Source: an uncultured Alphaproteobacteria bacterium
GTDB lineage: Bacteria; Pseudomonadota; Alphaproteobacteria; RF32; CAG-239
Length of the DNA: 33,825 bases
Reading direction: 5' to 3'
NCBI GenBank assembly: GCA_944389095.1
Contig: CALXLC010000035.1
Span: 1 to 33,825 of the forward strand
In this document: positions 17,100-22,497 of the stretch, one piece after another
Numbering within the stretch: the stretch's first letter is position 1
Layout: each line of letters opens with the position of its first letter
Notes under the pieces: model-generated
The model's input: the letters and a program-made list of their open reading frames with translations, nothing else
What the model was told of the DNA's origin: nothing
Databases searched by the model: none
Position numbers and translations under genes: made by a program

Positions 17100-17492
17100 A
17101 TGAAAAAAATTGTAGCCGGCGCAATCATTGTCCGTAACAAAAAAATTTACATCTGCCAGCGCCCCGCTGACAAAAAACCGCCGTTATTGTGGGAATTTCC
17201 CGGAGGAAAACAGGAACCGGGAGAAACCCTGCCGGAATGCCTGAAACGGGAGCTGTCCGAAGAACTGAACGTCAAAGCCGAAATCGGCGCCCCCTTTATG
17301 GTCTCTTCTTTTGATTACGAGTTCGGCACCATTGAGCTTCATACCTATTTTGCAACCCTCGACGGAGGACAAATGCCGGTTTCCAACGAACACAAAAACA
17401 CAGCCTGGGTTTGTCCCGAAGAATTGCCGGACTATCCCTTCTGCCCGGCAGACATCCCCATCGTAAAAAAACTCTCTAAAATCAAACTATAA
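17100..17492 (+). CDS. mutT: MutT-type 8-oxo-dGTP diphosphatase
   Basis: A 130-residue Nudix protein of typical MutT length. The Nudix box runs from Gly36 to Val58 (GGKQEPGETLPECLKRELSEE then LNV). The only departure is Asn57 where the final Gly usually stands. The opening VAGAIIVRNKKIYICQRP is characteristic of MutT, which removes oxidised dGTP before it is built into DNA. The related NudG (CTP-type) enzymes are an alternative. GGGAGG precedes the ATG. Its last six bases overlap the 3' end of the converging opgH gene, and no terminator separates them. Confidence 0.85.
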   Translation: MKKIVAGAIIVRNKKIYICQRPADKKPPLLWEFPGGKQEPGETLPECLKRELSEELNVKAEIGAPFMVSSFDYEFGTIELHTYFATLDGGQMPVSNEHKNTAWVCPEELPDYPFCPADIPIVKKLSKIKL

Positions 17493-19523
17493 ACGCCCTT
17501 CAAGCCGCAGGGCCAAATGCGCCTGATTCAGGGCATCTCTGTCATACAGCAGAGAAACTTCTTCATCCCGGCTCAAATCCAGCGGCATCTTATGATTAAT
17601 ATAATTCTCCAGTTTGATTTGAGCCGCCGCCGTTGTAACCGCATCGCTCTGCGGTGCCGGACCGTTAACTGCCAGCATCAGCAAATGCAGCGCATTGGCC
17701 TGTCCGTCGCAGACAACAAGCTCCACCCCCAGCTGACTCGGCCGCAGACTTTCAAGCTTTTGCCTGTATTTTCTGGCCTTCCCGATGATAGCCGGTTCAC
17801 GGAGTTCTTCGGGGATGACAAACAAATGATGTTTTTGAAACCACAAACCCAGACTTTCTCTCGACGTAAGCACCGAAACGGGAATGGATAAAATCAATCC
17901 TAACGTAATCGGCAGCATCCACCAAAACAACTCCGGTGTATACCGCCAAACCACTGCCAGCGTCAACACCCCGAAAAACGTATGCCAGCCATGCCGCTGA
18001 CAGGCATATCGCCAGGAAGTCGACGTATCATCTCTGTTTTGCGTTTTCCACCCGGCATCCCGTCCCAAAAACACATCAAGCACAAACTTGCTTTGAAACA
18101 ACATCATCACCGGCGCCATCAGTGTACTGATAACAATCTCTGCAAAAACCGACTTGACAGCACCTTTTCTTAATTCTGCCCCGCCTTGCAGCAAATAGAC
18201 GATAAGTCCCAGAAATTTCGGCAAAAACAACATCAGCATGGAAATCACAAACAACATGATTGTGCCGATTTTATCAAACACAGGCCAATTCGGAAACAAA
18301 GAACGGGCTTCCGAAAAATAAACCGGCGGAAAAATATCCCGCCCCAGCGCAATCATAATACCGGTCAGCAGCAATCCCATCCACAACGGCGAAGATAAGT
18401 AAGACATTACCCCGATAGTAAAATGCAACCTTGACACCGGATGGAAATCCCGTGCGACCAAAATTTTGATATGTTGCATTTCCCCCTGACACCAGCGCCG
18501 ATCGCGCATGGCGTAGTCAATCATTGTCGGCGGGCATTCTTCATAACTTCCCTTCAGTTCGGGAAGCAGCCAGGCCGCCCAGCCGCCCCTGCGAATAAGC
18601 GCAGCCTCGACGAAATCATGGCTCAGTATATGCCCGCCGAACGGCGCCCGCCCTTTCAAAACCGGCAGTCCGCAACACTCAATAAAAGCTTTTACCCGGA
18701 TAATCGCGTTATGTCCCCAGTAATTACTGTCGCTCACCTGCCAATAGGCCAGACCGGCAGACACAATCGGTCCGTACACTTTTCCGGCAAACTGCTGCAT
18801 TCTGGCAAACAATGTATGCTTGTTGACGCATTGCGGCGGTGCCTGAATAATTCCCGTTTGGGGATTGACTTCCATCAACTGCGCCATGGTCACCACGGTT
18901 TTGGCCTCAATCAGACTGTCGGCATCCAAAACCACCATAAAATCGTATCCGGCGCCCCATTTATTGCAAAAATCTTCAATATTGCCGCTTTTACGGGCTT
19001 CATTGCGCGGACGACGGCGATAATAAAGTTTCATTCCTTCCGGCATCAGTTTCTGCGCCTCATGCCAGTTCATTTCTTCTTCAACCCAGATCTTCGGATT
19101 CGTCGTATCGCTCAAAATAAAGAAGTCAAAAGCCTTTCCCTGACCGGACGCGGCCAGTTCATCGGCCATGGCCAACAGATTTGCCGCCGTACTCTGCGGC
19201 GATTCGTTATAAACGGGCATTAAAACCGCCGTCCGGGTGCTGAGGCGGCGTTCTGGGGCGCTCCACACCACCCCGGGAACTTTGCTTCTTTTCAACAGCT
19301 TGAAAAAACCGAAAACGCTTGACCAGAAAAACAAGGCAATCCAGCCGAACGTCAACACAAACAGGCCAATCATCAGAGAACGTGTCAAAAGCGTGATGTC
19401 TGTCGGAATCACTGTCGTCCATTTAAGCGTTGCCAAAACAATCGACACAATTGTCAGCCCGAACACTTTCAAACGCCGGTTATAAATTCTCTGCGGATTC
19501 AAATTGATTTCAGGCTGCTTCAT
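17487..19523 (-). CDS. opgH: OpgH (MdoH) periplasmic glucan glucosyltransferase
   Basis: A 678-residue family-2 glycosyltransferase of the inner membrane, which makes the beta-glucan backbone of osmoregulated periplasmic glucans from UDP-glucose. Visible motifs are LMPVYNESP, Asp200-Ala-Asp202 (VVLDADSL), GHNAIIRVKAFIE, LSHDFVEAAL and the Arg-Arg-Trp344-Cys-Gln-Gly product-site motif. Membrane helices lie at both ends. E. coli OpgH has 847 residues; the difference is mostly an N-terminal cytoplasmic part missing here. A longer frame to 19634 is rejected: GGAGAAAAC precedes the ATG at 19523, and the extra residues shadow the preceding gene. The start overlaps that gene by 14 bases. Confidence 0.93.
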   Translation of the reverse strand: MKQPEINLNPQRIYNRRLKVFGLTIVSIVLATLKWTTVIPTDITLLTRSLMIGLFVLTFGWIALFFWSSVFGFFKLLKRSKVPGVVWSAPERRLSTRTAVLMPVYNESPQSTAANLLAMADELAASGQGKAFDFFILSDTTNPKIWVEEEMNWHEAQKLMPEGMKLYYRRRPRNEARKSGNIEDFCNKWGAGYDFMVVLDADSLIEAKTVVTMAQLMEVNPQTGIIQAPPQCVNKHTLFARMQQFAGKVYGPIVSAGLAYWQVSDSNYWGHNAIIRVKAFIECCGLPVLKGRAPFGGHILSHDFVEAALIRRGGWAAWLLPELKGSYEECPPTMIDYAMRDRRWCQGEMQHIKILVARDFHPVSRLHFTIGVMSYLSSPLWMGLLLTGIMIALGRDIFPPVYFSEARSLFPNWPVFDKIGTIMLFVISMLMLFLPKFLGLIVYLLQGGAELRKGAVKSVFAEIVISTLMAPVMMLFQSKFVLDVFLGRDAGWKTQNRDDTSTSWRYACQRHGWHTFFGVLTLAVVWRYTPELFWWMLPITLGLILSIPVSVLTSRESLGLWFQKHHLFVIPEELREPAIIGKARKYRQKLESLRPSQLGVELVVCDGQANALHLLMLAVNGPAPQSDAVTTAAAQIKLENYINHKMPLDLSRDEEVSLLYDRDALNQAHLALRLEGRL

Positions 19524-19965
19524 GATGTTTTCTCCGTCGGAACAAACGTGTAAACCACCGTACCGGCCGCAAACTCTCAATCGGCTGAGCCTCCATGCGC
19601 GAAGCCTTGTATGCCGGAAGCATATCGGCGGCATAACGCTCCGTCAGAGCAAGCATCTCCGTCGGCAGCTCTTTTTGACACCAGGGCAAAGTTCCCCATC
19701 GCCCGGCGCCGTCATTCTCAATAAAAACCAACTTAAACAAAGCGGCGATTTGATAATCCGGCATACCAGCAAATTTACGCTGACGCCGCATATGCGAAAC
19801 CGGCAGGGCATCTAAAAAATCAACAATACTTCCGCCGTCGGAATAATCGCCCGCACAAGCCGCAACATCTTCGACGGCGGCTTCAAGTTTTTGTCCGGAA
19901 AACCCCAGATTTTGAAGATAAGCCCGGATAATATCCTTAAGGCTTTGTACTTTTACGGCAACCAT
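19510..19965 (-). CDS. Small protein between opgG and opgH; possible detached OpgH N-terminal domain
   Basis: A 151-residue protein with no signal peptide, so probably cytosolic. The N-terminal part is helical (SLKDIIRAYLQNLGF). A central WGTLPWCQKELPTEML segment follows, and the end is basic (LRPVRWFTRLFRRRK). That tail resembles the residues just before the first membrane helix of full-length OpgH, where E. coli has a similar Pro-Val-Gly-Arg-Phe-Trp stretch, judged from memory. It overlaps opgG by 13 bases and opgH by 14, in a different frame from opgH. The pair therefore looks like a split OpgH whose regulatory N-terminus is made as its own subunit. No family name is offered. Confidence 0.7.
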   Translation of the reverse strand: MVAVKVQSLKDIIRAYLQNLGFSGQKLEAAVEDVAACAGDYSDGGSIVDFLDALPVSHMRRQRKFAGMPDYQIAALFKLVFIENDGAGRWGTLPWCQKELPTEMLALTERYAADMLPAYKASRMEAQPIESLRPVRWFTRLFRRRKHHEAA

Positions 19966-21533
19966 TGATAACTCCAGACTTCAGAAACCGGTTTTCCGTC
20001 TTTTTTCAGGACCGCTCTTATTTCGGAGGTTTTGCCGTTTGGTCTGAAATCCATATACAAAGTCGGCCCCTTGGTCAACGGATTATAAATCAGATGAGAA
20101 CCCAGAAACTTTCCTTCCGAAAAAGAGATGTCGGCCGAAACTTCGCCGTTTTCAATAGCTTCTTTCAGATGATCAATCTGCGGTGCCGAAAAATCGATAA
20201 CGATTTTGCGCTTATCCTGTTCCAGAAGTCCGGAAATTCCGCCGATTCCGTTATACGTTGCCGTCACTTTTGCCAAGAGACTGTCAACCGGTGCGTCTCC
20301 GGTCCAGTGCAGACGATAGCGGTAGCGATACTCTTTTCCCGGCACAATTTCCTCCCGAGGAATCCAAAACGCGACTATATTATCATGAATTTCCTGCTGA
20401 GACGGAATTTCAACCAACTGAACGACACCCTTGCCCCAGTTGTCCAAAGGTTCGACCCAGGCACTCGGACGCTGCTCGTAAAAAGCCTCAAAATCAAGAT
20501 AATGCTCCGGATTTTTATCCCGTTGCAGCAAGCCGAACCCCTTGGGATTGTTATCTTCAAAAGAACTTATTCTCAAATAGCGTGAATTATCCAAAGGACG
20601 CCACAGCCATTCGTCATTACCGTTCCAGACCAACAGTCCGTCACTGTCATGAACCTCCGGACGATGATCGTCAAACATATGCTTGTTGTTTTCCCCGAAT
20701 AAAAACATGGACGTTAGCGGCGCAACACCCAGTTTGTTAATTTTTTTGCGCGGATACAAAACCGCGTCCACATCCATTGTTGTGGATAAACCGGGTTGTA
20801 TAACAAAAGCATAGGCCCCTGCCACACTCGGACTGTCCAACAAAGCATAAACTCTGATTTCGGCGGCACTGCGGCGCGGACGCTCTATCCAAAACTCCTT
20901 AAACAACGGAAATTCCTCACCTGTCTGCACGGCCGTGTCAATAGCCAGTCCTCTGGCCGAAAGTCCGTATTTTTGACCGGTTCCCAGCGCTCGAAAATAA
21001 CTGGCTCCCAAAAATGAAACCAACTCGTCAAAATAATCCGGACGATTCAACGGATAATGCAAACGAAAACCTGCATATGTCAGATTTGAAAAACGGGAGC
21101 CGTCCAAATGATTCTTGCCATAGTCAAAATAATCGGGAGAATACTTAAAAGGATGGGATTTTCCGTTAATTATCTGATTAATCCTGACTCCGTCTTCAAA
21201 AATTCCGCCCAAATGAAAAAACTGCACTTCAAACGGCCGACGGCGGTTGTACCAAGGACCGTTTTCGCGCACAAAACGAATATCCCGATGTTGGTCATAA
21301 CTCAGATTCTTCAGCTCATCGGGAAGATTCCGCAAAGGCGGCTCATAAGCCCTGGCCGCCAGAGCTGCAGCCTCTTTCTGCAACACTGAAAAATCAAAAG
21401 CTTCTCCCTTTTCAAGAGTTTCCGGAATTTCATCATACACGGCCCCCTGATAATAAAACTTATAAGCGGCCGCACCCGCCCCGATTAAAACCGCCAGCCC
21501 GGCGACCGCCAGATATTTTTTTGTTTTAGTCAT
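19953..21533 (-). CDS. opgG: OpgG (MdoG) periplasmic glucan biosynthesis protein
   Basis: The 526-residue exported protein begins with a basic, hydrophobic signal (KKYLAVAGLAVLIGAGAAAYKF), followed by the conserved OpgG fold: FDFSVLQKEAAALAARAYEPP, FFHLGG, AYAFVIQPGLSTTMDVDAVLY, EVHDSDGLLVWNGNDEWLWR and a C-terminal immunoglobulin-like domain. In E. coli OpgG acts in the periplasm on the glucan emerging from OpgH. OpgD is a close paralogue, and the gene next to OpgH is normally OpgG, which favours that name. The signal sequence lacks an obvious AXA cleavage site and may serve as an anchor. The Shine-Dalgarno sequence is weak. This is the first gene of the minus-strand glucan operon. Confidence 0.93.
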   Translation of the reverse strand: MTKTKKYLAVAGLAVLIGAGAAAYKFYYQGAVYDEIPETLEKGEAFDFSVLQKEAAALAARAYEPPLRNLPDELKNLSYDQHRDIRFVRENGPWYNRRRPFEVQFFHLGGIFEDGVRINQIINGKSHPFKYSPDYFDYGKNHLDGSRFSNLTYAGFRLHYPLNRPDYFDELVSFLGASYFRALGTGQKYGLSARGLAIDTAVQTGEEFPLFKEFWIERPRRSAAEIRVYALLDSPSVAGAYAFVIQPGLSTTMDVDAVLYPRKKINKLGVAPLTSMFLFGENNKHMFDDHRPEVHDSDGLLVWNGNDEWLWRPLDNSRYLRISSFEDNNPKGFGLLQRDKNPEHYLDFEAFYEQRPSAWVEPLDNWGKGVVQLVEIPSQQEIHDNIVAFWIPREEIVPGKEYRYRYRLHWTGDAPVDSLLAKVTATYNGIGGISGLLEQDKRKIVIDFSAPQIDHLKEAIENGEVSADISFSEGKFLGSHLIYNPLTKGPTLYMDFRPNGKTSEIRAVLKKDGKPVSEVWSYQWLP

Positions 21534-21638: not shown

Positions 21639-21991
21639 TTACGCCCCTCGGCGCCAAAACTTCTTTTTATGAAGACGATTGGCGAGAACCATACGGCATT
21701 TTTCGCCGTATCCGGCCTCATAAACGACCTCTGCATCCGGAAGTTTTTGCACTTCGCGCAGCAAAGCATCGACGTTTTTTGACAACCGGTATTTTTCGCC
21801 GGCCGTTTTTCGCAGTTTTAATGCTTCAAAACGGGCATTTTCAAAACCGGCCTTAAGAATTTCAAGCAATTCTTCGCCGCCGCGCAAGAAACATCATGCC
21901 CCTTCGCTGCCAAATATGAAGCAATTTCACAAATATGCATGACCGAACCGTGATATCCGGTAAAATAAAAACAGGTAAATAAGATTTTCAT
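21639..21991 (-). pseudogene. Glycosyltransferase remnant (frameshifted)
   Basis: From the ATG at 21991 (AAGGAC upstream) the frame reads MKILFTCFYFTGYHGSVMHI and continues CEIASYLAAKGHDVS. That is the opening strand-loop-helix of a GT-B glycosyltransferase such as family 4, then the frame degrades to a stop. A second frame starting near 21887 carries an open, helical stretch (RGGEELLEILKAGFENARF... to KKKFW). The two frames differ by two bases, and the total is far shorter than the usual 350-400 residues, so the gene has lost its middle or end. The surrounding DNA has other signs of rearrangement. The second segment is not firmly assigned to a glycosyltransferase. Confidence 0.55.
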
Positions 21992-22010
21992 GGTAGTCCT
22001 TTCTTCTTCC

Positions 22011-22041
22011 AAAAAACAAAAGCCGCCACGATGGAATGGCG
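22011..22041 (-). terminator. Terminator hairpin at the end of the structured RNA
   Basis: On the minus strand CGCCA (22041-22037) and TGGCG (22028-22024) form a stem with an 8-base loop, followed by GCTTTTG and T6 (22016-22011). It lies about 20 bases ahead of the start codon of the glycosyltransferase remnant. Confidence 0.65.
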
Positions 22042-22216
22042 ACTGGAAGTTAGCAACTACACGATAATAGTGCGACATATTGACTGAACACACAGCTTAT
22101 TTTGCCGCCTTCCAGTCAAAGTTCCAGACTTTCAGGCGTGCAAAATTTCGTCTTTACACCAGACGTATCGTGAGAGGTCGCTACACCTCAAAGCAGACAT
22201 CACCTGCTTCACGCCC
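22011..22216 (-). ncRNA. Structured RNA of unknown class
   Basis: The minus strand here can fold extensively. GGGCGTG (22216-22210) closes with CACGCCT (22140-22134, one G-U pair). Inside lie three hairpins in a row: 22191-22209 (6 bp, 7-nt loop), 22174-22189 (5 bp, 6-nt loop) and 22149-22165 (5 bp, 7-nt loop), giving a cloverleaf-like four-way junction. A 3' domain follows: GACTGGAAG (22117-22109) pairs perfectly with CTTCCAGTC (22049-22041), or part of it pairs instead with 22086-22080. It has its own promoter (22218-22246) and a terminator. There is no T-loop or anticodon arm, so it is not a tRNA. It could be a free RNA of about 200 nt or the leader of the downstream gene. I cannot assign a class. 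Confidence 0.6.
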
Positions 22217-22217
22217 T

Positions 22218-22246
22218 ATCATAAAAGATAAGAAACATCTTGTAAA
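22218..22246 (-). promoter_or_regulatory. Promoter of the structured RNA
   Basis: On the minus strand TTTACA (22246-22241), a 17-base spacer and TATGAT (22223-22218). Transcription should start within a few bases of the closing helix at 22216-22210; a shifted -10 (TATCTT) would place the start exactly at its first G. Confidence 0.6.
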
Positions 22247-22284: not shown

Positions 22285-22333
22285 CACAAAAAAAACCGCC
22301 TTGTGGCGGCTTTTTTATGGGGCGAATGATGAG
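22285..22333. repeat. Direct repeat copy 1: terminator plus tRNA-His 3' end
   Basis: This stretch of about 48 bp is nearly identical to 22450-22497 (one substitution and one A-run length difference). It contains a hairpin with A/T runs on both sides and the last 16 or so bases of tRNA-His. It is a partial second copy of the tRNA end lying 165 bp away, as left by recombination at a tRNA 3' end or by local duplication. Confidence 0.85.
22288..22316. terminator. Bidirectional terminator (copy 1)
   Basis: CCGCC (22296-22300) and GGCGG (22305-22309) form a tight GC stem around TTGT. There are eight A before and six T after, so it works on both strands. It insulates the structured RNA from upstream transcription. 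Confidence 0.75.
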
Positions 22334-22449: not shown

Positions 22450-22497
22450 CACAAAAAAACCGCCTTGCGGCGGCTTTTTTATGGGGCGAATGATGAG
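22450..22497. repeat. Direct repeat copy 2: terminator plus tRNA-His 3' end (in place)
   Basis: This is the original copy of the repeat: its right part is the 3' end of the real tRNA-His gene, its left part the tRNA terminator. See copy 1 at 22285-22333. Confidence 0.85.
22453..22480. terminator. Terminator of tRNA-His (copy 2)
   Basis: Hairpin CCGCC-TTGC-GGCGG with A7 on the left and T6 on the right. On the minus strand it follows the tRNA-His CCA end by one base. Confidence 0.8.

Follow-up and report, generated by a model that had tools for sequence, protein, structure and literature searches.

A putative riboswitch-like mRNA leader with two mutually exclusive helix sets in uncultured Alphaproteobacteria

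The structured RNA at positions 22013 to 22211, minus strand, of the stretch of DNA analysed here (the window, 33,825 nt from an uncultured alphaproteobacterium) is probably the 5' leader of an mRNA and, as we propose, a riboswitch-like cis-regulatory element of a new class with a small molecule as effector. Judged from its sequence and that of its homologues, this leader very probably controls whether the gene behind it is expressed. Its structure is conserved, it contains covarying helices that exclude one another, and its copies stand before the Shine-Dalgarno sequence and ATG of genes that are for the most part related to the cell envelope, with a Shine-Dalgarno sequence that covaries with the leader.

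Results

Parts of the leader

All features described below lie on the minus strand. A -35-like hexamer TTTACA (22246-22241) is followed, after a 17-nt spacer, by a -10-like hexamer TATGAT (22223-22218), as the initial annotation of this region had proposed. The -10-like hexamer is also seen before homologues, upstream of which CTTTAC/TTGAC is conserved, and promoter-like -35/-10 pairs scoring at least 9 out of 12 are located ahead of 53% of the copies compared to 6% of shuffled sequences. The leader runs from just past this promoter to a T-run and has a fold energy z-score of -3.1 relative to dinucleotide shuffles. It begins with three hairpins, which were found where they had been described: P1 (22210-22204 with 22196-22190), which covaries, P2 (GAGGU/ACCUC, 22189-22185 with 22178-22174), and P3 (CGUCU/AGACG, 22165-22161 with 22153-22149). 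Covariation points to an H-type pseudoknot, PK1, at P3, in which the loop sequence GUGUAA (22159-22154) pairs with 22143-22138. Helix F (UAGCGAC, 22183-22177, with GUUGCUA, 22057-22051), which excludes P2, and helix J (CACGAUA, 22172-22166, with UAUCGUG, 22066-22060) together constitute the best-supported long-range pairing. This pairing, the P3 pseudoknot, and the Shine-Dalgarno sequence and ATG after the T-run had escaped the initial annotation.

Hairpin A (22107-22137) pairs GCCU..AGUC (22137-22134, 22130-22127) with GACU..AGGC of a shared strand, S (GACUGGAAG, 22109-22117). The same strand is the 5' strand of a 9-bp helix, P9, and hairpin A and P9 are therefore mutually exclusive. The partner of S is strand P9' (CUUCCAGUC, 22041-22049), and in the window P9 joins GACTGGAAG (22117-22109) to CTTCCAGTC (22049-22041), which is the 9-bp long-range helix noted before. 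P5 and P6 occupy 22072-22108 (P5, 22108-22103 with 22077-22072; P6, 22095-22093 with 22086-22084) and enclose a conserved internal loop, AAAUAAG/UCAAUA (22102-22096, 22083-22078), which is a candidate ligand pocket. Hairpin E (ACUAU/GUAGU, 22056-22071) excludes both J and F. The intrinsic terminator (22011-22044), also at the place previously indicated, consists of AGUCGCC (22044-22038) and GGCGGCU (22027-22021) followed by a T-rich run to 22011; its 5' arm shares AGUC with P9'. Behind it lies the Shine-Dalgarno region (21997-22010), with GGAAG (22010-22006), complementary to CUUCC of P9', and AAAGGA. A helix of about 7 bp that was thought to enclose the three hairpins (GGGCGTG/CACGCCT) did not hold up, as it is broken in a 97%-identical sister copy (ATGGCGTG/CACACC) and missing elsewhere.

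Homologues and distribution

A blastn search returned copies from 21 of 58 genomes, with no more than four in any one of them, and revealed a second copy in the genome to which the window belongs. Twenty-nine homologues align end to end, and from these (alignment A1) we built a covariance model, R1, which scores the window at 195 bits. Matches to R1 are present in 31 of the 35 genomes of the genus, the weakest being a related subtype, and in 125 of the 153 genomes of the order, with up to 16 copies each and 16 of its 17 genera represented. Other families of the class also have matches at E ≤ 1e-11, in at least 13 genomes. Where relatives are named, they are uncultured Alphaproteobacteria, for the most part recovered from metagenomes of gut and rumen. 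Phage and plasmid records gave no match to the leader, and two pattern hits in viral contigs turned out not to be real copies.

The proposal that this is a structured non-coding RNA outside the known classes was borne out. Searches of the window and related loci against Rfam 15, at gathering and permissive thresholds and with the HEARO/IscB-associated RNAs and riboswitches included, returned only tRNAs, two of them in the window, and weak chance matches to terminators. A literature search outside subscription journals and preprints gave no description of this RNA. A HEARO or IscB-associated RNA was rejected based on the lack of an Rfam match and on the downstream genes, which are mostly envelope genes.

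Covariation and exclusive helices

The initial annotation would have been refuted by a lack of covariation in homologues. In a set of 99 homologues, 45 of the 48 pairs of the fold that comprises P1, F and J, P3, hairpin A, P5, P6 and the terminator (structure II) change on both sides, a level that was reached by none of 500 shuffles and was lost when the strands were slid against each other. The alignment used here (A2) was fitted to the model and is hence biased to structure II, but the MAFFT alignment A1, which is independent of the model, agrees. Helix F scores 17.2 with its own partner versus 8.3 with swapped partners, and helix J 17.6 versus 8.5. Helix J is the clearest case, since its 7 to 8-nt sequences differ in most copies, each with a matching partner.

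The alternative helices P2, P9 and E show compensatory change as well, in 23 of 32 pairs, and are incompatible with F and J and with hairpin A within one nested fold. P9 is nearly invariant inside the order and is rewritten with compensation in other families, as in GACUGGAAG/CUUCCAGUC, GGCCGGAUG/CAUCCGGUC, GGUUGGAGG/CCUCCAACC and GGCAGGAAG/CUUCCUGCC. These data support a predicted pseudoknotted fold with two mutually exclusive helix sets.

Genes behind the leader

A start codon with a Shine-Dalgarno sequence is located at most 50 nt past the T-run in 72 of 95 copies, whereas this holds for 3% of random positions and, on the opposite side, for 0 of 93, and in most copies the distance from the RNA 3' end to the start codon is 8-32 nt. 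The downstream genes share no homology with one another. Their products include outer-membrane beta-barrels, opacity and surface antigens, PEGA and BamE-like lipoproteins, pilin-like GRSMVEMLGVLAIIG proteins, glycosyltransferases, and capsule synthesis proteins. Based on a simple signal-sequence heuristic, 49 of the 72 downstream proteins appear to be exported, against 82 of 435 others (p = 2e-16, odds ratio 9). This placement before the Shine-Dalgarno sequence and ATG of unrelated, mostly envelope genes argues that the element is a cis-regulatory 5' leader, and the description of the element as a free-standing RNA gene had to be abandoned. Against the riboswitch-like reading stands the breadth of the regulon, which contains no single pathway that would name a ligand.

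The window copy looked free-standing because the gene behind it is a frame-broken, glycosyltransferase-like remnant (21991-21640), which starts with an ATG at 21991 and of which the first part encodes 57 amino acids (21818-21991; PF13439, E = 0.022, below the cut-off). This gene is also frame-broken in a species with a 97%-identical leader. At three other loci (L008, L014 and L015), the genes behind the element look broken too. Further downstream in the window, opgG and an opgH-like glycosyltransferase gene (17490-21533) have the same orientation as the element and might be reached by read-through. At 22289-22333 and 22453-22497, a 45-nt direct repeat (98%) lies beside tRNA-His, whose terminator and 3' end region it duplicates, an arrangement reminiscent of attachment-site duplication.

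Shine-Dalgarno pairing and termination

Strand P9' is contested three ways: by S, which hairpin A also claims, by the 5' arm of the terminator via AGUC, and by a downstream GGAAGUU via AACUUCC. The match to the Shine-Dalgarno sequence is class-specific, with AACUUCC:GGAAGUU, AACUCC:GGAGUU, AACAUCC:GGAUGUU and GAACACCC:GGGUGUUC, and AACACCC leaders stand before GGGUGUU. There are few minor classes, and these are in part related to each other, for which reason they weigh less than their number. GGAAG is located ahead of 39 of 85 main-type genes compared to 14 of 473 other genes (p = 1e-24), and the pairing between the anti-Shine-Dalgarno and Shine-Dalgarno sequences spans 5-10 bp across leaders. 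Together, the three-way contest and the class-specific match support regulation at both termination and translation. The window's own copy counts against the leader model, with a match of only 5-6 bp and a broken downstream gene. The energies also speak against it: nested models, which cannot represent pseudoknots and leave aside ions and co-transcriptional folding, always favour the terminator fold, by approximately 12.6 kcal/mol over the P9 fold, do not open the Shine-Dalgarno sequence when P9 is forced (34/78, p = 0.14), and show no switching.

Subtypes

A second type of leader (type 2, ~160 nt) follows the same layout, built from other helices, and lacks P3. It precedes small HTH-like proteins and occurs in 16 copies in the genome of the window and in up to 33 in others. 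In type-2 leaders, P9' and the terminator have only 1-2 nt in common, thus control of termination may be secondary there. Together with a gene for an HTH-like protein of 72-118 amino acids, the type-2 leader forms a dispersed cassette, 16 copies of which are spread over the 1.55-Mb genome of the window (on contigs C25, C32, C33, C37, C48 and C53 of G000, among others; loci L162-L164 and L257-L267), several at contig ends. These cassettes are similar from exactly 40 nt upstream, at the promoter, through the ORF.

A third subtype (L223, L232-L235, L218 and L237) combines this scaffold with the pocket UAUGUCCAAG..CYAAAA, while the main type and type 2 have AAUAAG..(C)AAUA, and AAUA/AAUA is one of a small number of loops that are conserved from family to family. 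In several cases, tandem leader copies stand before one gene (L058/L100, L205 and L214). A scaffold that accepts different pockets and an arrangement in tandem are both seen in ligand-binding leaders, and their presence here points to a riboswitch.

Discussion

The observations suggest the following model. Transcription would start at P1, and the nascent RNA could adopt two folds. In the OFF fold, F and J and hairpin A would form, with S held by hairpin A, and the free P9' (AACUUCC-AGUC) would both build the terminator arm, via AGUC, and mask the Shine-Dalgarno sequence, via AACUUCC:GGAAGUU. In the ON fold, S would capture P9' to form P9, either together with hairpins P2 and E or, where F and J persist, in a pseudoknot with them, and P9 would thereby occupy the terminator arm and the anti-Shine-Dalgarno strand. 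The choice between the folds would be biased by the binding of an effector, which is probably a small molecule, to the AAUAAG/CAAUA loop of P5/P6. The switching itself, the assignment of ON and OFF, the pocket and the presumed ligand are inferences.

Riboswitches with terminator or Shine-Dalgarno-sequestering platforms share much with this element: a position in the 5' leader, a conserved structured domain that here covaries, exclusive helices, a terminator and an anti-Shine-Dalgarno sequence before the ORF, and occasional tandems. What sets the present leader apart from known riboswitches is, aside from the lack of an Rfam match, that P9' is contested by S, the terminator arm and the Shine-Dalgarno sequence at once, and that its subtypes exchange the P5/P6 loop while keeping one scaffold. 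The c-di-GMP-I and -II riboswitches have regulons made up of pilins, outer-membrane proteins and exopolysaccharide. The leader resembles them in its regulon of surface genes, but it does not match their Rfam aptamer models. A GGDEF protein is present in 33 of 33 genus genomes, whereas none was found in G219 and G338, which are 99-100% complete and contain 4-5 leader copies, and c-di-GMP, which therefore cannot serve as ligand in all carriers, was rejected as a universal one. The wcaG and manA RNA motifs are pseudoknotted RNAs near polysaccharide genes that were described from other taxa; this likeness is a lead only, as the leader has no Rfam match to them.

The same cis-regulatory leader could be switched by a protein, a small RNA or the translation machinery instead of a small molecule. 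The breadth of the regulon without one metabolic pathway, the small HTH proteins behind type-2 leaders, which are possible regulators, and the large fold, as in protein-binding leaders, would fit such a switch. JUMPstart/ops-RfaH, EAR and LoaP antitermination leaders also sit before surface polysaccharide genes. However, many of the targets here are single small genes, and NusG is encoded at most once per genome, with no RfaH- or LoaP-like paralogue seen, while none of 12 genomes encodes CsrA, so that both a NusG paralogue and CsrA were discarded as effectors. The conserved unpaired loop, the tandem copies and the second type of pocket fit ligand binding better, and we regard this kind of switch as rather unlikely.

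An RNA thermometer, in which heat would melt the anti-Shine-Dalgarno:Shine-Dalgarno helix of envelope genes upon entry into a warm host, is in keeping with the extent of this pairing, the host-associated lifestyle and the surface genes, and ROSE-type thermometers of Alphaproteobacteria likewise use anti-Shine-Dalgarno pairing in a 5' leader. It is nevertheless very improbable, since the leader matches no Rfam thermometer and is far more complex, with pseudoknots, a terminator and a conserved loop that would be superfluous, and gut temperature is nearly constant for resident bacteria. We give as little credence to a dispersed, promoter-bearing repeat that supplies downstream expression without switching. 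The high copy number and the uniform boundaries of the type-2 cassettes would suit it, but two competing helix sets under compensatory change and the covarying Shine-Dalgarno sequence are not expected in a passive repeat, nor was the leader found in phages or plasmids. The promoter-like site, the terminator and the lack of an intact gene directly behind the window copy could suggest a free-standing, trans-acting small RNA gene, a reading that is hardly tenable in view of the strongly contradicting placement of the copies before unrelated genes and the covariation of the Shine-Dalgarno sequence with the leader.

As a more tentative proposal, which we hold with somewhat less than even confidence, the pseudoknotted scaffold with its interchangeable pockets (AAUAAG/CAAUA and UAUGUCCAAG/CYAAAA) would represent a new riboswitch superfamily for one or more host- or envelope-derived ligands. 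With up to approximately 30 copies per genome, all subtypes taken together, it would coordinate outer-membrane, pilin and polysaccharide genes of gut Alphaproteobacteria, using one strand as antiterminator partner, terminator arm and anti-Shine-Dalgarno sequence. With approximately 100 aligned sequences, clear helices and a covarying Shine-Dalgarno sequence at hand, the search for a ligand and tests by mutation can begin at once. If the leader acts as proposed, uncultured gut and rumen bacteria would possess an order-wide class of regulatory RNA that places much of their surface in one regulon, and the carriers would do so while they appear to be without CsrA and RfaH-like factors.
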